Source of the DNA: a virus
DNA length: 20,594 bases
Reading direction: 5' to 3' (one strand)
Virus record (IMG/VR): IMGVR_UViG_3300010936_000005
Coordinates: 1 to 20,594 of that record
This document shows, one piece after another, positions 5,101-20,594 of the stretch; positions within the stretch are counted from its first letter, which is position 1; every line of letters starts with the position of its first letter. A program made the position numbers and the translations under genes. The notes below the pieces were generated by a model that was given only the letters and a program-made list of their open reading frames with translations, made no database searches and was not told the origin of the DNA.

Positions 5101-6004
5101 GATTTTTATAAGACACTCTAATTTGAGGAAACAAAGCATCTTCTATAGATCTGGCCATTGACATGGCTTGAGTTTGACTTAAATCTAATTGACTAATTGT
5201 TTTTTCTAAAGTTTTAATATTGTTATTAACCATCTCTACATTGTGGTTAGCAATCGCAGTCTTTTGCGCTTTAGCTTGAGCAACTATAGTATTAGGTAAG
5301 CCTTCACTACTAATTAGTCCTACAGGTCCTTCTAAACCAACTCCTTTTACGCTGAAAGCATTTTTAATTCCTTCCCAAAGACCTAATGTTTGTTCTGTCA
5401 TCTCTCCTTCAAAATCTTTTACTTTAGTGGTTTTTTTAGCTAAACCACTGGAGGCAATAACTTTAGCTGCTACTGGCGATACTGCGTCTAAAGTGCCACC
5501 AACTGCACCAGTTACTCCTTTAATAGCGTAAGGTAATCCCATGACAAAAGCAGTTGCTTCTCCTGCTACATTAACTTTTTCCATTAATCTAGCAGCTGCT
5601 GCCTCTGAACCATTTAATCTAGCTAATCTTTCTTCGTCGGAATCATTATCCATGAAAGCATCTAGTATCGTAGTAGTGTCATCTGTTGCTACTGCGCCAT
5701 CAACAACTCCAAACGTTAAAGCTTTTTGTAGGTTAGAAAATTTATTAGCTCTAGATATTAAACCAGCTGCACCTAATCCAGGCACACCAAATTGAGTTAT
5801 GAAAGAAGCTATCTCACCAGCTGTGCTTTCTGGCGCATCAATCATTCTATTGTCAAAAAATGTTTGTAGATCTTTAGTTAAATCAGTATCGGCAAAATAA
5901 TCTATAGCGGAAGTAACAGTCTCTCCAACACCTTTAACACTTTTTTGTAAACCAAGTAAGCTTCCTCTGGCTATGTCTGAGAGTATGCCTTTTTTTTCTG
6001 CCAT
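2105..6004 (-). CDS. Giant virion-internal / DNA-ejection-type protein (1299 aa)
   Basis: The last and largest gene of the late operon. Size, position after other internal-type proteins, and mostly helical Lys/Glu/Ala-rich composition suggest a podovirus internal core or ejection protein comparable in place to T7 gp16, although I see no sequence motif of gp16. The N-terminal 100 residues hold Gly-rich amphipathic stretches (around 70-85, F-G-V-P-G-L-G-A-A-G-L). A long helical region with coiled-coil character covers about 235-400. A Gly/Ala hydrophobic stretch (A-G-A-I-T-A-G-G-G-F-G-A-G-I) lies near 895-915, followed by N-P-Y-D-L-F-R-R-P, and could enter a membrane. The C-terminal 200 residues are charged and helical. 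No lysozyme or transglycosylase motif was recognised. It starts five bases after the 503-aa gene. Structural role is probable; ejection role is inference. Confidence 0.7.
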   Translation of the reverse strand: MAEKKGILSDIARGSLLGLQKSVKGVGETVTSAIDYFADTDLTKDLQTFFDNRMIDAPESTAGEIASFITQFGVPGLGAAGLISRANKFSNLQKALTFGVVDGAVATDDTTTILDAFMDNDSDEERLARLNGSEAAAARLMEKVNVAGEATAFVMGLPYAIKGVTGAVGGTLDAVSPVAAKVIASSGLAKKTTKVKDFEGEMTEQTLGLWEGIKNAFSVKGVGLEGPVGLISSEGLPNTIVAQAKAQKTAIANHNVEMVNNNIKTLEKTISQLDLSQTQAMSMARSIEDALFPQIRVSYKNPGITNPDEIKKLAMKVRGNARRNITNIEKRMTKTYENLGIDDRLKVSNIVRDMRDQVDDMSREILDLRKTDEKAFNALLTEEGLKDSVARNIGIYGTRVYKAFMDDGAFLKNLDPKLKQEAINEIKKVTGFDDNTADYVWRSISSRGRSSATNKDFTGFETAEFISEGLSKAQQGILKGRTLNNLPAVRRALGEVSGYLQSTPEQALANTGLVAASTISKLSSIIGKTKVFQDIKLINDIGPTQLGTKQFLKDKEFLKGAIDVGPNRFAKPSADGKTEVIYKQFGDNFGALSGMVTREDFYNAIAKTTTSFEQNHHVLMKAYAPMLALKSISQYGKTVGSPLAQVRNNTSIPFFALLNGNVGSTGKLADAYVNTFAGLIDPASRKLKSEVVEELTELGIAQRGGSAIFGELKRNAEIAFDAAPGFGRVVKGVKEVPGIKQTTDFAEEVYKMTDDTARVFNYFLEKPRFKNALNIIRADKNLKPGAEFVPVESMANIKNFQNNITIGKNGGAVLDIRRLTDDQVEAFARAETAELTLNTVQNYQRVVPIVRDGISRLPIGNFTAFPAEMIRNGTNSLHRAIRELASESPELQKIGMRRLAGAITAGGGFGAGITAVGSYLTGVTYDQIKAFQRQGTPWEETATMVPVGSDKDGNPTEFFNFSYMNPYDLFRRPALRILAEVEEGNRNEESLTKILLDSTFQGGLELITPFVEPAFGLNAFADAYRGETGTGRKIWRQGDSPGDKALKGIVYAVDTILPSATPVNFEFSEGNNFYVGPRLKDGPKSVINFTKNGNPGKGGRGQELDVGETMLQAFTGIKTVKPQLETTLLYRAYEAAQAVQDSSNEFNSLINQPNFDEEKAKSYTLAYIRANKDRYNALRDLYQTLNDTRMLGLTPTKQREILKKAKITNYDEVLMGRFQPIQLDRGKINQKIFEGMDIDNLKLEQIKRRLQLEDLEGRYRGNQLGAVQSPNAEIRNKQTQDRVSVALRQAEIDKLLGIT

Positions 6005-6009
6005 GATTT

Positions 6010-7521
6010 TTAATCTGGAGTTGTTCCTGGTTTAGGTCTGCCTGTTATTTTTCTAAGCATCCTCACATTGTTTGCTGCTAAAGAAGCTAAAGTGCTTCTC
6101 TTCAGAACTTCAAACTCACCCTGGTCATTAATAATTCCTATCTGTACGTCTTTAGGTTCGATACCAAGCCTTTCTGCCTCTTCAATTTGTAAATCCAGAT
6201 ATAACCTTGAAATTCCTTCATCATCTAATTGATTTAAATTCACACCAGCATCTGCTAATTTACCAGATACATATAAGTCTTTTAATTCTTGATCGCCTTT
6301 AATTGATTCTAATAGTTTTTGTGTTGCTCCCTTGTTAGCCTCTATAGCTTGATCTTGAGCTAAGTAAGCAGTGGTAAACTCTGGTATTCCTAAAGGAGAT
6401 AAAGGTACAAAACCTTCTCTTGGCATCATCATCGCAGAAAACCCAGCTAACATTTTTTTTGCAAACTCTGGGTCACTAGCTACTCTTTGACCATAAGCTT
6501 TACCAAATGATTTTACATATTCACCGAAGGTTGGTTTATCTCTTATTGTATCTCCAGTATCTGGATCTATTAAAGGGCCAACACCGCCTTGATCGTTTCT
6601 TGAATAACCATAATCATTTATTAAAATTTCTCTCATAAATTCACCGACAGTATCTGGTGCATCTTCAACTGTAGTTGCGCCTTCATCTAGCATTTCAGCA
6701 TAAGTAATATTAGTATTCGGAACCTCTTTCTTTTCATCACCATCGCCAAAAAATAAACTACTGGCTGTAATAGTAGCTACACCAGCAGCAGCTGTTGTTC
6801 TCACTGGATTTCTTTGAAATATATTTTTACCAGTTTGTCCAGCGTCTGCTCCAGCTCCAGTGCCTTCATCTACTGCATCAGCTGTTTGTGTACCGGTTTT
6901 TTTATCAGCTTCCTTTGCTTCTTTTTTAGCTTTATCAAGTCCTTGTTTAACAATTTTACTTCCTTTAGCAAAACCTTGTATTCCTTCTATTATTCCACCA
7001 TCTTTTTTAGGAGTAACAATAAATTCTCCCTTAGCTTCTAACTCTTTCTTTTTATTTTCTTCTATTATTTTTCGTAGCTCTTTAACATCTTTAATAGTGC
7101 TAGGGAGTCCAACCGTTTCTTGTGCCGCAAACAATCTACCAAAGTTTTTTGCTTTGCCTCCGATAGTGTTTGCCTCTCTAGGAATAAAAGTTCTATCTAC
7201 TACGTTGCCAGCTTTGCTAGCAATTTTTTTAATTTTGTTTCCTGTAGTCAAAGCTTTGATACCTATAGCTGCTGGTATGCCTATACCAGTTGCGGCTAAA
7301 GCTAAAATTCCATAATCGATTGGGTCAGTTGGATCAAATATCATTCCGTCTTCACCAAACATTGCTAACTCTAATCCTTCATCGCCAAAAATTCCTCCCC
7401 TTGTGCCTGGAACAGGTATATTTAATACGCCACCTGTTTCAGAATCATAAAAAGTTTCGCGATCAAATCTTTCACCATAACCTTTTACGTTTTGACCTAA
7501 ATCTTTTATGCCTCCTATCAT
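6010..7521 (-). CDS. Virion-internal protein with two hydrophobic segments (503 aa)
   Basis: Family not recognised. Residues 1-65 are Gly/Asp-rich. A clear hydrophobic segment lies at about 70-92 (G-I-L-A-L-A-A-T-G-I-G-I-P-A-A-I-G). A Lys/Glu-rich helical stretch covers 140-205 and a flexible Gly/Ala/Asp/Thr linker 206-232. A second hydrophobic segment lies at about 242-258. The remainder is acidic and helical, ending in a Pro/Gly/Thr tail. It contains a degenerate copy of the GG motif seen in the 515-aa protein (DGGIIEGIQGFAKGS, 174-188). It starts in an ATGA overlap with the 383-aa gene and ends five bases before the 1299-aa gene, so the three are probably made together. Likely an internal or ejected membrane-active protein, judged from context. 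Confidence 0.6.
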   Translation of the reverse strand: MIGGIKDLGQNVKGYGERFDRETFYDSETGGVLNIPVPGTRGGIFGDEGLELAMFGEDGMIFDPTDPIDYGILALAATGIGIPAAIGIKALTTGNKIKKIASKAGNVVDRTFIPREANTIGGKAKNFGRLFAAQETVGLPSTIKDVKELRKIIEENKKKELEAKGEFIVTPKKDGGIIEGIQGFAKGSKIVKQGLDKAKKEAKEADKKTGTQTADAVDEGTGAGADAGQTGKNIFQRNPVRTTAAAGVATITASSLFFGDGDEKKEVPNTNITYAEMLDEGATTVEDAPDTVGEFMREILINDYGYSRNDQGGVGPLIDPDTGDTIRDKPTFGEYVKSFGKAYGQRVASDPEFAKKMLAGFSAMMMPREGFVPLSPLGIPEFTTAYLAQDQAIEANKGATQKLLESIKGDQELKDLYVSGKLADAGVNLNQLDDEGISRLYLDLQIEEAERLGIEPKDVQIGIINDQGEFEVLKRSTLASLAANNVRMLRKITGRPKPGTTPD

Positions 7522-8669
7522 TTCATAAGCCTCGCGTAATCAACTGCATAGTAACCATTTTTAATAGTTACTGCCTCTGGCTCTACTTCAAGAACTTCTT
7601 GAGCTAAGAATCCAGCAGTAGGTTCTGCTTCGACTCCTATTTCTTTAGCTTTGTCATTCCAATCCCATTCGTACCAGCCTAGATTATTGTCATAGTCTCC
7701 TACTCTTCTAATGTTTTCTTTTAATTCCATGTCTGAATTTACAGCTGCGCCAATCCCAGCAGCAGCAGTTCCTACAGCTCCTGCAGCACCAGCTATCTGA
7801 GATAATGGTGAAGGTTGCATTGCCATTTGAGGTTGATATATTTGGGCGCCTGTGCCCCCAGAAATACCTCCAGCAGGCATTCCAGCTAAGAGTTGTTGTC
7901 CTCTTTGCAATCTAGCAAAAGGTTCATCAGCTAAGACATCAGCCGCTCTAAATCTTCTAGATAAGTCTGATTGTTGAACACTTCTGTCAATAGCTCCTTG
8001 ACCGGCCATAGCTCCTATTCTGTTAATTGCTTGTGCTTGCCCAGCAGCTCCAAGTGTGGATATACCGCTACCAATATTTTGTAACTGTGCAATATTTTGA
8101 CCAACTTGAGCTTGAGCATCTTGGAAACCTTGTCTTCTAATACCACTTACTGCTTCCAACAATCCTCTACCTAAAGCCGCCTGATTTTCTGCTTGAGCTA
8201 TTCTGCCCCTAGAACCACCATAGGCTCCAGAAGTAACAGCAGCATCTCTAATACCAATATCTTTTTGTTGATAGGCTTTGGTAATATCATCTATTGATTG
8301 TTGTACCACATCATCTTCAAAAGGATTGAATCTAGCTCTGGCAGCTGCAACTGGGTCCCTTGCAAGATCTCCTGCTTGTCTATAGTAATTTATACCTTCT
8401 GGAGTAAAACTTGCAAATTGTCCTAGTTGTCCCGCTTGTTCTGCTGCTTGTCTTTCTAATTCAGTTAGCTGTGCAGTGCCTTCAATAGGAATGGGTCTTT
8501 CTTGAGATATTAAACCTTCGTATTCTCCAGGAGAGCCAAAGTAAGCGCCCAATAATCTTCTGCTGTAATCTTCTATGTAAGGAGATACAAAAGAATAACC
8601 AGTGGTGGGCAGCTCAACTGCTTCAGCTTTTGGCCCCATAATTGGTTTACTTTTACATGTGCATCCCAT
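7518..8669 (-). CDS. Internal virion protein with C-terminal S74-like module (383 aa)
   Basis: Residues 1-30 include an unusual M-G-C-T-C start. Residues 30-290 are Ala/Gln/Gly/Arg-rich and helical, like podovirus internal proteins, with a conserved-looking N-P-F-E-D-D-V-V-Q-Q segment near 115-124. A hydrophobic Ala/Gly run (about 288-310) leads into S-D-M-E-L-K-E-N-I at 312-320. This is the intramolecular-chaperone (peptidase S74) entry motif, with Ser312 and Lys317 five apart. It is followed by G-F-L-A-Q-E-V (352-358) and A-V-D-Y-A-R-L. The module is only 72 residues, shorter than on true fibres, and whether it self-cleaves is unknown. AGGTAG upstream supports the start. The stop overlaps the 503-aa gene by ATGA. 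No fibre-like beta repeats are present, so I read it as an internal or core protein rather than a tail fibre. Confidence 0.65.
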   Translation of the reverse strand: MGCTCKSKPIMGPKAEAVELPTTGYSFVSPYIEDYSRRLLGAYFGSPGEYEGLISQERPIPIEGTAQLTELERQAAEQAGQLGQFASFTPEGINYYRQAGDLARDPVAAARARFNPFEDDVVQQSIDDITKAYQQKDIGIRDAAVTSGAYGGSRGRIAQAENQAALGRGLLEAVSGIRRQGFQDAQAQVGQNIAQLQNIGSGISTLGAAGQAQAINRIGAMAGQGAIDRSVQQSDLSRRFRAADVLADEPFARLQRGQQLLAGMPAGGISGGTGAQIYQPQMAMQPSPLSQIAGAAGAVGTAAAGIGAAVNSDMELKENIRRVGDYDNNLGWYEWDWNDKAKEIGVEAEPTAGFLAQEVLEVEPEAVTIKNGYYAVDYARLMK

Positions 8670-8673
8670 AATA

Positions 8674-9159
8674 CTACCTATTTAAATTGTTGTAATAAGT
8701 CCCACCAATTTGGTGAAATCCTTTGTTTAATAATAATTTTTCTGCTTTATCAATGCTACCAATATTATATATACCCATTATGATTGGTATATTTTTTTCT
8801 TCAGCAAGTTTCATCCCAGCTTCTAATAACATATTAGATGGTTTTAAATCATCCTTTACATTTCTATATTCTGGTCTAACAAAAAACCAACTGTCTCCTA
8901 AAAAAACATCGTCTGACCACCAATGAGAACATTCTTCTAATCCTAAACTACCAATTATTTCTTGATTACTTCTTACCACATAAACAACACCTTTTAATAA
9001 AACATTATTTATCTGCCAAGAAGTTTTGCCCCAATGCACTCTAGGAGATTCACCACCATCTAAAGAGTGATCTGCATGAAAATGATTAACCAAAAAGTCT
9101 GCTATCTCTTTACCATCTTTTTCGTTAAATGAAAGTTTATCTAAAGTAAATTTACTCAT
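8674..9159 (-). CDS. GNAT-family N-acetyltransferase
   Basis: A 161-aa protein with GNAT architecture. An N-terminal helical part (1-45) is followed by the strand G-V-V-Y-V-V-R-S (57-64), a tight turn with Q-E-I-I-G-S-L-G-L (66-74), and then D-S-W-F-F-V-R-P-E-Y-R (about 88-98), the strand that usually precedes the acetyl-CoA pyrophosphate loop. A long helix follows (S-N-M-L-L-E-A-G-M-K-L-A-E-E, 108-121), and the C-terminus has the usual G-F-x-x-I-G-G-T-Y-Y. The typical Q/R-x-x-G-x-G/A loop is degenerate, which is common in this divergent superfamily. It lies between two virion-internal genes with gaps of one and four bases. The substrate is unknown; modification of a virion or host protein is possible. 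Superfamily call is good, function open. Confidence 0.72.
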   Translation of the reverse strand: MSKFTLDKLSFNEKDGKEIADFLVNHFHADHSLDGGESPRVHWGKTSWQINNVLLKGVVYVVRSNQEIIGSLGLEECSHWWSDDVFLGDSWFFVRPEYRNVKDDLKPSNMLLEAGMKLAEEKNIPIIMGIYNIGSIDKAEKLLLNKGFHQIGGTYYNNLNR

Positions 9160-14549: not shown

Positions 14550-15158
14550 TCATTTTGTAAAGATTACCGTACTACTGGGATAAGTCTGCCCATAGATAGG
14601 GTAAATATTGCTAGTTGTTCCTCCTCCTTGCGTAAAACTCCAAGACCATGTGCTTAATGCACTACCTCCACTACCAGAAAAACTATAACTTGCAGCAGTC
14701 CTGTTTAAAGATGTGCCATTAACATTTATCGTAGCGAAGGCATCATTATTAGTATTTGAAACAACGCCAGCTACTTGTAAATAAAATATTCCAGCACCTC
14801 CGTTATTATGATGTCTATTCCAAAGATGTTGAACAGCATTGCCACTAAAAAAACTAGATTTACTTGTAGCAGATGTAAAACTTCCATAATTTACGCCATT
14901 AAACTCATCAACTCCACTACCTCTTATTTGGTTACCTCCAGGACCCAATTGAATAGTCCAAAATCCAGGAGTAAAATTAATTTGAAATTCTGCAGCTGCG
15001 CCATACCATTCATTAAAAAACATTGAAACACCTGAACTTTTACCTATCAATCCTCTAATATCAGAGTCATTTAAAGTGCAAGCAGTACCACTACTACCGC
15101 CTGCTTCGGTGTGCATTTGATTTAAAGTTATATTACCACTGGTTGGTATATCACTCAT
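14550..15158 (-). CDS. Receptor-binding / fibre-tip protein with collar-type N-terminus (202 aa)
   Basis: Residues 1-53 carry a short module: S-G-N-I-T-L-N-Q-M-H-T-E-A-G-G-S (7-22), then L-N-D-S-D-I-R-G-L-I-G and F-F-N-E-W-Y-G. I recognise this module from many marine phage tail-tip proteins. The rest (54-202) is a beta-rich Gly/Ser/Thr/Asn domain with W-x-R-H-H-N-N-G-G near 113-121, lacking any known enzyme motif and probably a host-binding head. The ATG is in an ATGA overlap with the 396-aa S74 fibre gene, so the two are made together and may form one fibre. The 249-aa protein at 18785-19534 has the same kind of N-terminus with a different C-terminus. Structural role inferred from the module and position. 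Confidence 0.7.
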   Translation of the reverse strand: MSDIPTSGNITLNQMHTEAGGSSGTACTLNDSDIRGLIGKSSGVSMFFNEWYGAAAEFQINFTPGFWTIQLGPGGNQIRGSGVDEFNGVNYGSFTSATSKSSFFSGNAVQHLWNRHHNNGGAGIFYLQVAGVVSNTNNDAFATINVNGTSLNRTAASYSFSGSGGSALSTWSWSFTQGGGTTSNIYPIYGQTYPSSTVIFTK

Positions 15159-16345
15159 TTTTTAAGTTCTTCTATTTGTTTGCTTAAATCTTTTACTGCC
15201 TCTATAAGTAATCCAACTGTATTAGCGTACTTCATAGTTTTTACTGTCCCCAACTCTTTGTCCTCATGTTCATCTACTAGCTCTGGCACCACTTTTTCTA
15301 CTTCGTTAGCTACTACTCCTATTTCTTTTGAATTGTTTGATTTACGAGTAAAGTGCACTCCTCTTAATTGATTTACTTTTTCTAAAGCATTTCCTATTTG
15401 ATAAATGTCTTCTTTCAGCGCCATATCAGAATATGCACCTACGTTACCTGTAGCTGTAAAATTACCACTGGTATCACAAGTCAACATAGTGCTATTTGAA
15501 TTATTATCAACTCGCCAAGTAGTATCAAATTTGGTTATGGTGTTGCCGTTTGTAGCAAAATAAAATCTATTTCTACCATCAGCAGAACTAAGCCAAGCAT
15601 CGTTAGGTAAGGCTGAATTTAATTTAGCATTAATTTGTGTTTGCACATTGGAAGTTACTCCATCAAGGTAGCCAACCTCTGTATCAGTTACTGCACTTGC
15701 AGAAACATCTCCATTACTATCAGATACTAAGGCTCTACTAGCAGTCAAGTTTTCCATTTTACTAAATTCTATTAAAGCTGTTGATTTTATATCTGCATTT
15801 ACAATATTAGTAATAGTATTGTTATCAGAGTCTATCGATTTATTAGTAAAGGTTGTTGATGAACTCGCAGTAACATCACTAAAACCACCACCATTCAATG
15901 TTGAATTAGATCCTAGATCTATCTTATCTAAACCATCAGTAACAGCAGCTCCAGAACCGGCCCCATCTGTAAATACTAATTTAGTTTTACCATTTGGTAT
16001 GGTTACATTAGCGCCACTACCTTGAGAAATAATTATGTTTTGTGCTCCGCCAGTTGCATTTTCAATAAACCATAATTTAGAAATTGTATTTGGAGCTAGA
16101 GTTATAGTACAAGCTGAGTCTAGCGTACCAGTGTATTTTAAATACATAGCTCTGCCAGGAGCAGTAGCTCCATTAGATACTGTTGTAGTGTGTAAGTCAG
16201 CGTTTGTGGTTATTGCTTCAGTTCCATAACCTAAAGCTTCTCCAATTAATTCTAAATTTTCGTTTGTACGATTTCCCCAGGTACCTGATTCATCACCAGT
16301 TCCCATTTCTCTAAGTCTGAGATTATTATCAAACGTACTTGCCAT
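15155..16345 (-). CDS. Tail fibre with C-terminal S74 intramolecular chaperone (396 aa)
   Basis: The N-terminus (1-45, F-D-N-N-L-R-L-R-E-M-G-T-G-D-E-S and then G-T-W-G) is a marine-phage fibre entry domain. The middle is Thr/Ser/Asn/Gly beta-rich with the fibre motif G-Y-L-D-G-V-T-S-N-V-Q-T-Q-I. From S306 the protein reads S-D-M-A-L-K-E-D-I, then G-V-V-A-N-E-V-E-K-V-V-P-E, then Y-A-N-T-V-G-L-L-I-E-A-V-K. This is a full peptidase S74 domain of about 91 residues with Ser306 and Lys311 as the dyad. Family members drive trimer folding and then cut themselves off just before the Ser, predicted here between Y305 and S306. GAGGTA precedes the ATG. A terminal coiled coil (K-D-L-S-K-Q-I-E-E-L-K-K) fits trimerisation. 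Confidence 0.85.
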   Translation of the reverse strand: MASTFDNNLRLREMGTGDESGTWGNRTNENLELIGEALGYGTEAITTNADLHTTTVSNGATAPGRAMYLKYTGTLDSACTITLAPNTISKLWFIENATGGAQNIIISQGSGANVTIPNGKTKLVFTDGAGSGAAVTDGLDKIDLGSNSTLNGGGFSDVTASSSTTFTNKSIDSDNNTITNIVNADIKSTALIEFSKMENLTASRALVSDSNGDVSASAVTDTEVGYLDGVTSNVQTQINAKLNSALPNDAWLSSADGRNRFYFATNGNTITKFDTTWRVDNNSNSTMLTCDTSGNFTATGNVGAYSDMALKEDIYQIGNALEKVNQLRGVHFTRKSNNSKEIGVVANEVEKVVPELVDEHEDKELGTVKTMKYANTVGLLIEAVKDLSKQIEELKK

Positions 16346-16382: not shown

Positions 16383-17087
16383 TTAAGCCACATCTTCCCA
16401 ATTAGGATCTTGAGTATCTGTTATTTCACTAAAACTTGATGTTTGTGATTCTGTTATTTCACTAAAGTTTGATGATTGAGAATCATCTAACATGGACCAA
16501 ATTAATACTGTAGATAACTCATTTGTCACCTCAAGTCCAACAAGAGTTACATTTGCTTTAGCTATTTCCGTTATAGTTCCTAAACCACTAGTTAAAGCAA
16601 ATCCTGATAAGGTAATCGTATTACTTGATCTTTGCGTTATTGTGCCTAGAGCAGAAGTAGCTAATTGACTAGCTGGCGTAACATTTGCCACTCCAGTTAC
16701 AGTTACCCCTACTGAGCCAACGCTTGTATTTAAACTAGGTAAAGTTGCTACAGCTTGCGCATTTACTCCTACACCGCTCAATCCGGAAGTAGCTCCTTGG
16801 CTTGAAAAATCTATTGTTAAATTAGATTCTCCTGTGATTGTCATTAAACCTAATCCAGATGTCATAGCAAAACCAGTAACACCTATATCTCCACCAGCAG
16901 TAATACCTACTCCGCCTACGGCAGAAGTTGCTCCTTGGCCTGTAGGATTTATGTTAGCTGCACAAACAAAAGTAGTTGTGCCCACTGATCCAGTGGCAGA
17001 CTGCCCTGTTAAAGATACATTTACATTACCTGCAAGGCCAGCTAGGGAAGCGAAAGGTGATTCTGCAAATGCACTTATTCCAAACAT
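16383..17087 (-). CDS. Beta-repeat virion protein with triple C-terminal motif (234 aa)
   Basis: After 20 residues the protein consists of about eight imperfect repeats of 21-24 residues (21-44, 45-66, 67-88, 89-112, 113-133, 134-155, 156-177, 178-198). Each is roughly N-V-x-V-T-G-x-x-A-T-S-G-L-G-x-V-T-I-T. The repeats predict short beta strands and a fibrous stack. The acidic tail has three 11-residue units (D-S-Q-S-S-N-F-S-E-I-T; E-S-Q-T-S-S-F-S-E-I-T; D-T-Q-D-P-N-W-E-D-V-A). Both repeat types are familiar from marine phage structural proteins. No enzyme motif is present. It lies between the enzyme cassette and the second S74 fibre, so it is likely a fibre shaft or tail decoration. Structure inferred from composition alone. 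Confidence 0.65.
   Translation of the reverse strand: MFGISAFAESPFASLAGLAGNVNVSLTGQSATGSVGTTTFVCAANINPTGQGATSAVGGVGITAGGDIGVTGFAMTSGLGLMTITGESNLTIDFSSQGATSGLSGVGVNAQAVATLPSLNTSVGSVGVTVTGVANVTPASQLATSALGTITQRSSNTITLSGFALTSGLGTITEIAKANVTLVGLEVTNELSTVLIWSMLDDSQSSNFSEITESQTSSFSEITDTQDPNWEDVA
16417..16482 (-). repeat. Two tandem 33-bp direct repeats in coding sequence
   Basis: Units 16417-16449 and 16450-16482 begin with an identical 17-base run, TCTGTTATTTCACTAAA, and remain similar after it. They encode the first two of the three 11-residue acidic units at the end of the 234-aa protein. The high base identity points to a recent duplication, or to slippage. Confidence 0.8.
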
Positions 17088-17095
17088 TTAATTAC

Positions 17096-17845
17096 TCATG
17101 CTCCTTTTGTTTTATAAAATTTTAAAAGTTTATACCACTCTGGTTTTATTTCTTCCCATGCAGTAAATTTTTTAATACCTAAAGTATGTCTAACTTCCTC
17201 TATAGGTTTATCTAAAAGTTCATGCCAATTAACAGTCATAAACCAAGGAGTTTGTTTGCCTTTTAAATAACCTTCTAAAATTAATCTAAAAATACTTATT
17301 GCAGGATTAAATTTAATTTTAAACCATAAAGGACCTTGTATTGCATTTTTGCCAAAAGAGTTTCTAATGGACAAAAATATACTAGATAAACAAATATAAA
17401 AAAAACTCCAACGAAAACCTTTTGCAATAGAAAAAGCTAATACTGATAGCTCTGCAATAGGAGTAGAATCTAATCTATTTAGACAATGTATTAAATCATG
17501 TTCGTTTAACATACCTTGTAAAAAAGCTATTCTTTTTTTTCCTTTAGTTTTAGATAAATTAAAATTTTTATGAAACAAATCATCTTGATTATTTTGCCAA
17601 AAAAATTTTAACTCTGACCCTAGAGTTCCTTTTTTATATTGTTTTTGCATAACCACTTCTTTTAAATTTTTCTGCTTAAAAAAAGTTTTTGCGTAAGGGT
17701 GTTTTTTAAATTTGTTAAATATCTTTCTATCACAGTTTTTATCTAACTCATCTACCATAGTTAAAATTAAATTCAAATTTGTCTTAGAATGGTCTTTTTT
17801 TATTGTTTTGTAATAAGTTTTTAAGAATAAAAAATGTTTAATCAT
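17096..17845 (-). CDS. Coq4-family protein (ubiquinone-biosynthesis-like), phage-encoded
   Basis: A 249-aa protein. Residues 116-132 give H-D-L-I-H, then eleven residues, then E: H116, D117, H120 and E132 match exactly the HDxxHx11E metal-binding signature of Coq4. Around it are G-T-L-G-S-E-L (73-79) and A-E-L-S-V-L-A-F-S-I-A-K (131-142). The C-terminal N-W-H-E-L-L-D-K-P-I-E-E-V-R-H-T-L-G-I (206-224) matches the way Coq4 proteins end. A hydrophobic stretch (about 146-160) suggests membrane contact. Coq4 organises or catalyses a step on the quinone ring in ubiquinone synthesis; human COQ4 is reported to act in oxidative decarboxylation at C1. The protein is Lys/Phe-rich, unlike its Gly/Ser/Thr-rich fibre neighbours. 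It is translated from an ATGA overlap with the cupin-like gene. Family call from motif; substrate in this phage is open. Confidence 0.75.
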   Translation of the reverse strand: MIKHFLFLKTYYKTIKKDHSKTNLNLILTMVDELDKNCDRKIFNKFKKHPYAKTFFKQKNLKEVVMQKQYKKGTLGSELKFFWQNNQDDLFHKNFNLSKTKGKKRIAFLQGMLNEHDLIHCLNRLDSTPIAELSVLAFSIAKGFRWSFFYICLSSIFLSIRNSFGKNAIQGPLWFKIKFNPAISIFRLILEGYLKGKQTPWFMTVNWHELLDKPIEEVRHTLGIKKFTAWEEIKPEWYKLLKFYKTKGA

Positions 17846-18549
17846 TTGTAAATTGCTATTATTCTAGTTGTTTCGTTACTTACATTTTTTATTAAACACT
17901 CAGAACTTGTAAGTTTTTTACAATCATACTTAGAGAACGTATGTGTTGTTTCTCCCACAGTTACCTCACAATTATCTCCTGTTAATATATAACAAGTATC
18001 TCCATCTTTATTAAAGGAAGTTGTTTGTTGTGAGGGTAAATCAATGTTTTTATAATTCCAACCATAAGAATTACCCATAGCACATACTATAACAGTATTA
18101 TCTTCTAAAGCTTTTAAATATGCTTTATCAGTAGCTATCTCCCAAGCAGATGACCTTTCAGTCCATTCTGTTATATATCCACCATAATTTATGGTATATC
18201 CTAACTTATTGCTCTGAGTAAATTTAGTTGCATAGTTATCATCAGGATTGTTTTTTGCTAGTTCCCAAAACTTATCTATTACCTCTTGGGTTATATTTTC
18301 TTCATCTTTCCATTCATAACAAACTTCCAAACTACCTTTCATAAATAAATAATTATTTAAAGATTTTTGAATTTTATTAGAATCGGAATGATAAATTATA
18401 CTGTCGTAATGAGGTTGTTCTTCAATACTTAATCTACCTATTTGATCCCCATAATTGCCAAATAAAATACTTATTTGTAAATTATTATCTAAGTTTACAA
18501 CTGGGTACTCAGGATTTTGAGAAAAAGAAAAGATTATATTTTGTGTCAT
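17842..18549 (-). CDS. Cupin-like protein of unknown function (235 aa)
   Basis: No family recognised for the whole protein. The C-terminal 60 residues (about 176-235) look like a small cupin barrel: C-Y-I-L-T-G-D-N-C-E-V-T-V-G (strand-turn-strand with Gly), then F-S-K-Y-D-C-K-K-L, then I-K-N-V-S-N-E-T-T-R-I-I-A-I-Y. The metal-binding His/Glu set of active cupins is not complete, so it may bind a ligand or be structural. The N-terminal 170 residues are mixed alpha/beta with many Trp and Tyr (G-Y-T-I-N-Y-G-G-Y-I-T-E-W). Both ends are overlapped: TAATG with the 78-aa gene and ATGA with the Coq4-like gene, placing it firmly in the enzyme cassette. Confidence 0.5.
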   Translation of the reverse strand: MTQNIIFSFSQNPEYPVVNLDNNLQISILFGNYGDQIGRLSIEEQPHYDSIIYHSDSNKIQKSLNNYLFMKGSLEVCYEWKDEENITQEVIDKFWELAKNNPDDNYATKFTQSNKLGYTINYGGYITEWTERSSAWEIATDKAYLKALEDNTVIVCAMGNSYGWNYKNIDLPSQQTTSFNKDGDTCYILTGDNCEVTVGETTHTFSKYDCKKLTSSECLIKNVSNETTRIIAIYK

Positions 18550-18785
18550 TATATTTCACTTGAATTTGTCTTAGGTATATCTTGATTTATTTCTTTTACA
18601 GTTTTTAACTCTGAATCTCGATTGTTTATTTGTTCTAATAATTCTGCTTGTAGCTCTGATAGTTCTTTATTTTCTTTTAATACTTCTATTGAATGACCAT
18701 TCCAAAAACAAAACGCAACTTCTCCTACTTCTTCTGAAGTTTTAAAGTAAACTACAATATCTTCGCTATTTAATTCTACGCTCAT
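18549..18785 (-). CDS. Small coiled-coil protein (78 aa)
   Basis: The best start is the ATG at 18785, giving MSVELNSEDI..., in a TAATG overlap with the upstream gene like the other junctions in this stretch. An eight-codon extension would need a TTG start and a 25-base overlap. Residues 1-33 form a small beta region (D-I-V-V-Y-F-K, then V-A-F-C-F-W-N-G-H). A Leu-heptad coiled coil follows (about 38-62, L-S-E-L-Q-A-E-L-L-E-Q-I), then a polar tail. Not recognised as a family; the coiled coil could mediate assembly with the neighbouring tail proteins. Confidence 0.55.
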   Translation of the reverse strand: MSVELNSEDIVVYFKTSEEVGEVAFCFWNGHSIEVLKENKELSELQAELLEQINNRDSELKTVKEINQDIPKTNSSEI

Positions 18786-19534
18786 TAGTGAGTTACTGTT
18801 ATACTCCAAGTTCCAGAAAAACCACCACTATGTGCAGCTATGGCATTTACTAAAGTAAAGTTCACCAATGTGAAATTTCCTAAAGTTGCATTGGTTGTAT
18901 GAGTAACGGCCATCATACCTAGACTTGCGCCATTTGCTGTTTGAGTTCCATTATAAAAAGTAGTGGCAGGAAAGTTTCCCTCAGCAGCACAATATATTGA
19001 TGTAAGAGGAAGTCCAATACTACCACTATAGGTAGTACCATAAGAATAAGCAGTTCCTACATGACCTGCAAAATACATTTGAAAAGTAGCAGGAAAAAAC
19101 CCTCCTCCTGAGGCATATTGAGAAATCATTCCGTAACAAGTAAGCGGAGTATTTGTTCCTGAACTTGTTCCTCTAAAGTGATTTGCCTGTATAGCTCCAG
19201 AGGAAGGTATTGCTCCTGCATTTCCTGTTTTATCAACTCCTGTAAACTTATTAATAACCATAGATTGTGTTGTATTTGTCATATGGCTATTGAGAGCAGT
19301 ATGGCAAAACCCATCGTAATATCTGGTGCCAGTAAGGGTTGCTTTACCTGAGGTGTATGTATAACTAGTGGTAGTGCTTTTTACTGTTGGAGCAAATGCA
19401 GTAGAAGTGCCTGTATTATTAAAATTATTAGGCAATCCTCCACTATAATACTCATTTAAACTAATAGGATTACTCCCCCCAAACTCAGTTTGAATTTGTG
19501 AAAATGATACTGCTCCTGAACCTGATATTGCCAT
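18785..19534 (-). CDS. Receptor-binding / fibre-tip protein with collar-type N-terminus (249 aa)
   Basis: Starts MAISGSGAVSFSQIQTEFGG, followed by S-N-P-I-S-L-N-E-Y-Y-S-G-G. This is the same short module as in the 202-aa protein: Q-[IM]-x-T-E-x-G-G-S, then L-N-[DE]. The remaining 210 residues are Ser/Thr/Gly/Tyr-rich beta structure with aromatic turns (for example F-Q-M-Y-F-A-G-H-V-G-T and S-I-Y-C-A-A-E-G-N-F-P) and end T-W-S-I-T-V-T-H. No catalytic motif is seen. It follows the oxygenase in a TAATG overlap and would be a natural substrate candidate for it. Probably a host-recognition tip; assignment based on the module and position. Confidence 0.68.
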   Translation of the reverse strand: MAISGSGAVSFSQIQTEFGGSNPISLNEYYSGGLPNNFNNTGTSTAFAPTVKSTTTSYTYTSGKATLTGTRYYDGFCHTALNSHMTNTTQSMVINKFTGVDKTGNAGAIPSSGAIQANHFRGTSSGTNTPLTCYGMISQYASGGGFFPATFQMYFAGHVGTAYSYGTTYSGSIGLPLTSIYCAAEGNFPATTFYNGTQTANGASLGMMAVTHTTNATLGNFTLVNFTLVNAIAAHSGGFSGTWSITVTH

Positions 19535-20169
19535 TAATTACTTCTTTTTTCTAACCAATTTATTTTTTCCATTTTTGAATCTCCTATAAGAACTCTATTC
19601 CAATTTTCATATTTCTGAAAAAGTTTTGGTGTTTGTTTCCATATACTTGTAGCTAAATTTTTTCTTATTCCTTTATGTATTCGAGTTACTCTGTGCATTT
19701 GTGCTGAGTCCATTAATACAAATCTATTTTGTTTAGGTTTTATTCTTTCTATACTTTCGGTATCAATATTTAAAGCATTTTTACATTGTGCCTCTAAGTT
19801 TAATCTTTCATCATAGGGTGCTATTTCCATAACTCCACCACATAAATCATGACTTACTTCTACATAATAAACTAAACTTTTGTCTGCTATTAAGTAATCA
19901 TCATTTATATAGTGTGATTCACAAGTATCTTGATGCCACTCTAAAGAACCCATATCTTGAAATACTCTTGACCAATATTCAAAGCCTCCTTCAAGATAAT
20001 CATTTGGATCTATTAAATCTTGCCATAAAAGTTTTATAACTTCTTCAACTGGATTTCTAGGATTTTCTGACCACCAACCTTTCCAATAGTTATACATAGG
20101 CATTGTTTGATATGCTTTAGATTTTGCTAAATTAAAATCTAGTTTTAAAGCATTATCTTTTACTATCAT
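19534..20169 (-). CDS. 2-oxoglutarate/Fe(II)-dependent oxygenase (prolyl hydroxylase-like)
   Basis: A 211-aa protein with the residues of the 2OG-Fe(II) dioxygenase fold in order. W-H-Q-D (78-81) supplies iron ligands H79 and D81. C-G-G-V-M-E-I-A-P (110-118) is the turn and strand following the first sheet. N-R-F-V-L-M-D-S-A-Q-M-H-R-V-T (148-162) supplies H159. I-R-K-N-L-A-T-S-I-W (168-177) supplies R169, ten residues after that His, to bind 2-oxoglutarate. All cofactor residues are intact, so activity is likely. The family hydroxylates protein side chains (Pro, Lys, Asn), nucleic acids or small molecules. The start overlaps the S74 fibre gene by ATGA, and the stop overlaps the next fibre gene by TAATG. 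This suggests a job in tail maturation or host interaction, which is inference. Confidence 0.85.
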   Translation of the reverse strand: MIVKDNALKLDFNLAKSKAYQTMPMYNYWKGWWSENPRNPVEEVIKLLWQDLIDPNDYLEGGFEYWSRVFQDMGSLEWHQDTCESHYINDDYLIADKSLVYYVEVSHDLCGGVMEIAPYDERLNLEAQCKNALNIDTESIERIKPKQNRFVLMDSAQMHRVTRIHKGIRKNLATSIWKQTPKLFQKYENWNRVLIGDSKMEKINWLEKRSN

Positions 20170-20594
20170 TTATCCTCTAGTTCTTTTACTCTGGCTTCTA
20201 ATTCTTTTATAGCTTCTACCAACAATCCAACTGTATTGCCATAACGAATAGCTAAGTGTTTATCTTCATCATTGTCTATATCACAAGATTCATAAACCGC
20301 CTCTGGTAAAACTTTTTCTAAATCTTGTGCTATCAATCCCGTACTAACTTTGCCGTCTTTTTTATAATTAAAGGTAATTCCTTTTAATTGTTTTACTTTA
20401 TCAAGAGCATCAGGAATGACTTCAATATTTTCTTTTAACTTTATATCTGACGTATTTCCAAAAGCTGTAATATTGCCATTACAAATTATTGCACCAGCAT
20501 CAGAAAAATCTACTCTAACTCCTGTGATTGCTGAACCACCATCATTTCCTGATATAAAAAAGTCTTTGTCCGCACCTACTACTGTCATAACAAG
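20166..20594 (-). CDS. Tail fibre C-terminus with S74 chaperone domain, 5'-truncated
   Basis: The frame is open to the window edge (two more codons, Leu-Val, lie before the ATG at 20588), so this is the end of a longer fibre. Numbering from that Met, residues 1-46 are beta-rich and end G-N-I-T-A-F-G-N-T. The S74 domain begins at S47: S-D-I-K-L-K-E-N-I, then G-L-I-A-Q-D-L-E-K-V-L-P-E-A-V, then Y-G-N-T-V-G-L-L-V-E-A-I-K and a coiled-coil end. Ser47 and Lys52 form the expected dyad; cleavage is predicted just before Ser47. The domain closely resembles that of the 396-aa fibre, so the two fibres share an evolutionary module. The stop overlaps the oxygenase start. Confidence 0.85.
   Translation of the reverse strand, partial: LVMTVVGADKDFFISGNDGGSAITGVRVDFSDAGAIICNGNITAFGNTSDIKLKENIEVIPDALDKVKQLKGITFNYKKDGKVSTGLIAQDLEKVLPEAVYESCDIDNDEDKHLAIRYGNTVGLLVEAIKELEARVKELEDK

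Follow-up and report, generated by a model that had tools for sequence, protein, structure and literature searches.

A very divergent Coq4-family protein encoded behind a bicupin in a phage cassette, and its possible connection to lipid chemistry

The DNA examined here (the window) is a complete IMG/VR virus record of 20,594 bases. Towards its end, a series of genes on the minus strand runs from a truncated tail-fibre gene to a gene for a member of the Coq4 family. In reading order, with the metal-site residues of the last gene given separately, the features are as follows.

20166..20594, minus strand: C-terminal part of a tail fibre with an S74 intramolecular chaperone, truncated by the window end (PF13884, E=9.1e-17)
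19534..20169, minus strand: 2OG-Fe(II) oxygenase, 211 aa (PF13640, E=3.1e-7, 31.7 bits, cut-off 27)
18785..19534, minus strand: adhesin-like protein, Gly/Ser/Thr-rich, 249 aa, with an N-terminal SGxxSxxxIxxEFGG-type motif
18549..18809, minus strand: small ORF, 86 aa, TTG start, stopping at the bicupin start; sequence not conserved
17842..18549, minus strand: double cupin (bicupin), 235 aa (model pLDDT 93; cupin folds at Z about 10)
17096..17845, minus strand: Coq4-family protein, 249 aa, the final gene of the cassette (PF05019 match; model match to 6e12 and 3msq)
17450..17500, minus strand: metal motif HDxxHx11E (LNEHDLIHCLNRLDSTPIAELS), read from the sequence
17498-17500, minus strand: H116 of the metal motif
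17495-17497, minus strand: D117 of the metal motif
17486-17488, minus strand: H120 of the metal motif
17450-17452, minus strand: E132 of the metal motif

The Coq4-like ORF reads from 17845 to 17096 on the minus strand, which corrects an earlier, sequence-only reading of this DNA; translation of 17096-17845 on the plus strand meets many stops and was ruled out. The same reading had placed the gene in the middle of tail-fibre genes, and S74-fibre genes do lie on both sides of it. It had also proposed a link to the Coq4 family, with a profile search and a structure prediction as checks. PF05019, the Pfam Coq4 profile, matched the window protein significantly (E=9.9e-6, 25.4 bits), passing the curated cut-off of 22.9. 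It further matched 8 of 8 close relatives (best E 4.5e-10), and its cut-off was passed by all 15 Coq4-carrying viral records searched whole (5 + 10), more distant ones included. In the reverse direction, a profile built from the viral Coq4-like proteins recovered alphaproteobacterial Coq4 proteins, with E down to 1.7e-23. The proposed family link stands on these matches: Coq4 family membership of the viral protein is almost certainly sound, and the window protein is a true but very divergent Coq4 relative. PHROGs and NCBIfam contain no family for it; a search of 50,697 phage records returned no phage Coq4, and we found none in the literature consulted.

Scans of IMG/VR yielded 50 Coq4-carrying contigs, the window included; since several are near-identical, counts over contigs do not represent independent events. 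Rescanning with a broad profile brought in no new Coq4 contig. The gene is under purifying selection, with dN 0.043, dS 0.51 and dN/dS of about 0.08 between the window and contig L003, and dN/dS of about 0.075 between L020 and L022.

H116, D117, H120 and E132 occur in the window protein with exactly the HDxxHx11E spacing that had been described, as read directly from the sequence, and this spacing lies within the HDxxHx(10-13)E pattern of the family. The typical ends reported with it (GTLG; W..L..KP..EVR..LGI) are present as well, as GTLG at 73-76 and W207..P214..EVR219..L222GI224. HDxxHx11E is intact in 49 of the 50 viral contigs, the single exception being a contig that ends before the motif, and the four residues remain invariant while identities among the viral proteins fall to 24%. 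They are also common to 33 alphaproteobacterial homologues; across 21 viral and 33 bacterial rows about twenty positions are conserved, including all four metal ligands, and G73, G76, L90, G196, P214 and R219 are likewise retained in both the viral and the alphaproteobacterial PF05019 proteins. The two groups differ in the loop within the metal motif, which has NKLDST-type residues in the viral proteins and TGYGRD in the bacterial ones. Residues that are fixed and typical of the viruses are I119, N123, D126, R145, N162, F164, E191, W201 and W230.

A model of the Coq4-like protein was built with AlphaFold2 from an alignment of 19 viral sequences. It is moderately confident (mean pLDDT 72.6, about 60 over residues 131-170), and the structural comparison returned only two strong matches, both cyanobacterial Coq4 homologues: 6e12, at Z 13.9 with an rmsd of 3.5 over 196 residues, and 3msq, at Z 13.2 with an rmsd of 3.9 over 198. 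The next-best solved structure reached only Z 3.6. The region superposed on 6e12 runs from residue 1 to residue 226 of the model. In the 6e12 structure, that of Alr8543, oleic acid and magnesium are bound, and the metal ligands are the HDxxHx11E residues (PMC9774615); judged from the superposition, the four corresponding residues of the phage protein would meet in space. The phage protein resembles cyanobacterial Alr8543 (6E12) and Npun02000094 (3MSQ) in predicted fold and HDxxHx11E motif (PMC9774615), and differs from them in its low identity (17-18%) and in the phage context of its gene. Relative to bacterial relatives it has an additional stretch at approximately residues 164-178.

When the viral proteins were placed in a tree together with bacterial homologues, they grouped into one clade (100/100 support) whose stem measures 3.46 changes per site; the bacterial rows are alphaproteobacterial only, and the long branches limit what can be said about origin. 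As placed by this tree, the viral proteins are a virus-specific deep branch of the Coq4 family. A recent host origin of the gene was rejected, no relative being present among the genome contigs. Two weak SAR11 matches to the viral profile contain stops and were set aside as chance.

The order adhesin-like gene, small ORF, bicupin, Coq4-like gene defines a cassette. In the window, the bicupin and Coq4-like genes share a 4-base ATGA overlap. Every contig that extends far enough beyond Coq4 has the bicupin upstream of it (46 of 46: 43 counted by script, plus L019, L020 and L021, which exceed the script's overlap limit and in which the bicupin was seen directly), usually overlapping, and this holds for Coq4 identities down to 24%. 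Conversely, a reverse scan with a bicupin profile found 23 loci, all 23 with Coq4 adjoining, and bicupin scanning contributed one extra contig, L300, whose Coq4 is cut by the contig end. A profile pooled from all bicupin types was too diverse for scanning. The sole break of the pair that we saw is in L239, where a 2OG-Fe(II) oxygenase gene (5330-5986) sits between bicupin and Coq4. The bicupin model matches a cupin (Foldseek E=3.7e-5) and resembles PA5104, YhaK, AerE and pirins, with their double-stranded beta-helix fold, at Z about 10. Its metal-binding histidines are not conserved: among 18 rows, His reaches at least half in one column only, at 72%. A structural match of the bicupin to P-HM1/P-HM2 proteins was discarded when the gene could not be placed in P-HM2, and the P-HM2 genome gave no match to the Coq4, bicupin or desaturase profiles. 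The Coq4-bicupin distance correlation (0.69, against 0.71 with the next structural gene) adds nothing.

Wherever a contig extends far enough upstream of the bicupin (34 of 34), it encodes a protein with a related adhesin-like N-terminus, in most cases separated from the bicupin gene by a single small ORF. The name adhesin-like reflects the protein's composition, its N-terminus, which is short and conserved whereas the rest varies, and its position following S74 fibre genes; it is presumably an adhesin. The small ORF is present at the equivalent place in nearly all relatives. EEI-like ends occur on unrelated small ORFs upstream of the bicupin (L008, L009, L012, L013, L229, L235 and others). A role of this C-terminal '-EEI' as a peptide tag was considered and rejected, as in many loci it coincides with a ribosome-binding sequence of the GAGGAAAT type and with the overlapping bicupin start; we treat it as a by-product of translation signals. 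A 2OG-Fe(II) oxygenase gene lies no more than 5 kb from the cassette in 16 of the 50 contigs.

Comparisons among the viral contigs outline a mobile unit. Over 17047-20477 (4449-7876 of L002), the window shares 94.6% identity with L002, dropping to about 50% just beyond the Coq4 stop and to 67-75% in the fibre gene at the other edge. Between the window and L003, similarity is confined to the bicupin-Coq4 pair (86%) and the terminal part of the fibre gene (83%). These alignments show a sharp-edged cassette block that has evidently been exchanged between phages. Carriers of the cassette include integrase-encoding phages of about 36-38 kb, HTVC027P-like contigs and myovirus-like contigs; in the last of these it adjoins an exonuclease and a TauD-type gene and no clear tail module is seen. 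The backgrounds are varied, and what recurs with Coq4 is therefore not one phage backbone but the trio of adhesin-like gene, small ORF and bicupin.

A G+C of 34%, together with structural proteins related to those of Pelagibacter phage HTVC027P (25-32% identity), suggests a marine alphaproteobacterial host, possibly SAR11. In the corresponding region HTVC027P also encodes a 2OG-Fe(II) oxygenase; unlike the window, it gave no PF05019 or bicupin match. A full tRNA-Lys gene (anticodon ttt) adjoins the integrase in three related phages (L013, 20203-20278; L015, 20155-20230; L017, 20212-20287). Use of the L013 tRNA-Lys to identify the host was abandoned: the best SAR11 match was only 81%, which does not amount to attachment-site identity.

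The strongest functional clue comes from loci in which the Coq4 slot holds something else. A second reverse scan, restricted to bicupins from a single branch, recovered 10 loci, 8 with Coq4 (one cut by a contig end) and 2, L306 and L307, with PF00487 fatty-acid desaturases directly after the bicupin. L307 has two of them (E=1.9e-12 and 8.7e-18), and L306 stops within the first. The desaturase pair behind the bicupin was located as follows.

L307, 3717-4469 and 4511-5206: PF00487
L308, 4904-6396: PF00487

Genes flanking the desaturases in L307 and L308 are collinear with those of the Coq4 phages L249, L232 and L253. The desaturase locus reads 132-aa gene (83% to L249), small ORF (67% to L249), bicupin (40%) and desaturases, and continues with an 89-aa gene that is 54% identical to the gene immediately following Coq4 in L232. 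PF05019 has no match in the desaturase contig, and PF00487 has none in ten Coq4 contigs searched. L306 and L307 are near-identical across their overlap, and the replacement is therefore counted as one event. One slot occupied by two unrelated families that both handle hydrophobic chains hints at what the cassette does. Alternatively, a host-takeover gene unrelated to the cassette could have landed there by chance.

Pelagibacter phage Mosig EXVC030M offers a partial parallel: Asp/Arg hydroxylase, fatty-acid desaturase and TauD-type genes adjoin its tail-fibre genes. It differs in that no Coq4 or bicupin is annotated in its examined stretch and in that its enzymes are far more numerous. At 53765-66289, near the fibre genes, it has MoaA-like, aminotransferase, desaturase, TauD, hydroxylase and putative ubiquinone methylase genes. 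A record named Acinetobacter phage MD-2021a (CAKLQH020000002.1, 51285-59893) carries btuB, ydiU and baeS/baeR and resembles a mislabelled bacterial chromosome.

We tentatively favour a lipid-directed function for the Coq4-like protein that is linked to the adhesin, and this is the reading on which we would lean first. The protein would be helical, with a divalent-metal site at H116, D117, H120 and E132 and, as its homologue Alr8543 suggests, a hydrophobic groove able to hold an acyl or prenyl chain. Translated together with the bicupin, it would, late in infection, bind or chemically alter the hydrophobic chain carried by a membrane lipid or a lipid-linked molecule, while the bicupin, without the usual conserved metal histidines, might bind the substrate or its head group. 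The outcome would be recognition or modification of the host envelope matched to the adhesin, not respiration; the target would be either that envelope or the adhesin of the virion. The sequence-only reading had raised the re-use of the fold for another membrane-lipid or virion task, and the locus fits that suggestion better than the quinone role proposed beside it. More speculatively, and with somewhat less confidence, the adhesin-like gene, small ORF, bicupin and swappable lipid enzyme (Coq4-like or desaturase) may together be an undescribed phage system that tailors lipid at the phage-host contact, on the adhesin or on the host envelope.

A related possibility, which we regard as unlikely, is receptor masking: the pair of bicupin and Coq4-like protein would change an envelope lipid or glycolipid, so that progeny or competitors no longer bind. 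A shared receptor would explain why the cassette travels and is co-exchanged with the adhesin-like gene; the lipid-type replacement in the Coq4 slot and the integrase in several carriers are in keeping with such superinfection exclusion. The cassette is, however, also found in contigs where no integrase is seen, and the bicupin is without the conserved metal histidines expected of cupin metalloenzymes.

Still less probable in our estimation is the ubiquinone role, in which the product of an auxiliary metabolic gene would perform or assist C1 decarboxylation of a precursor and sustain respiration during infection. Ubiquinone is widespread in alphaproteobacteria, though the PF05019 family was present in only 33 of 385 sampled, so Coq4 is not a standard bacterial ubiquinone factor. 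PF05019 had no match in ten SAR11 genomes, and the viral profile had no credible match in 297 SAR11-family genomes. Two near-full relatives (G682 and G683) carry portal, AAA, nuclease, integrase and regulatory genes, and among their 58 ORFs we found no quinone gene. The strict coupling to the bicupin and adhesin-like gene, the NKLDST-type residues in place of the bacterial TGYGRD loop, the long viral stem and the substitution of desaturases for Coq4 in one lineage likewise argue against the change in host respiratory quinones that the sequence-only reading had put forward. In its favour are the PF05019 match and the intact metal motif, features shared with eukaryotic COQ4, the C1 decarboxylase of the COQ metabolon, which in the human lineage is reported to be zinc-dependent in vitro (PMC7615680). 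By this analogy an enzymatic role for the phage protein is possible. Unlike eukaryotic COQ4, the phage gene has an obligate bicupin partner, and no other COQ/Ubi gene was found in the two near-full relatives. Quinone-labelled genes are also known in other phages, for example ubiG (PMC9301287) and the putative Mosig methylase gene mentioned above.

Least probable is a non-catalytic virion or assembly role, with the Coq4 fold and bicupin as chaperones or minor fibre-tip parts, like the tail-fibre assembly proteins encoded behind fibre genes: the place directly behind the adhesin-like gene, the exchange with it and the bicupin's want of a conserved metal site would suit it, but four metal ligands kept at 24% identity would be needless in a passive scaffold, and the slot can be taken by a desaturase.

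Automatic annotation would label the gene ubiquinone-related and so feed claims about viral control of marine respiration, against which the gene order argues. Should the cassette prove to handle lipids in the service of adsorption or receptor change, lipid chemistry would be tied to host recognition by phages in a new way. The viral branch also provides a natural contrast for studying the role of the Coq4 metal site.

Elsewhere in the window, three separate genes (20166-20594, 15155-16345 and 7518-8669) end in an S74 intramolecular chaperone, and a 161-aa ORF at 8674-9159, among structural genes, has a weak acetyltransferase (GNAT) match (E=0.017).
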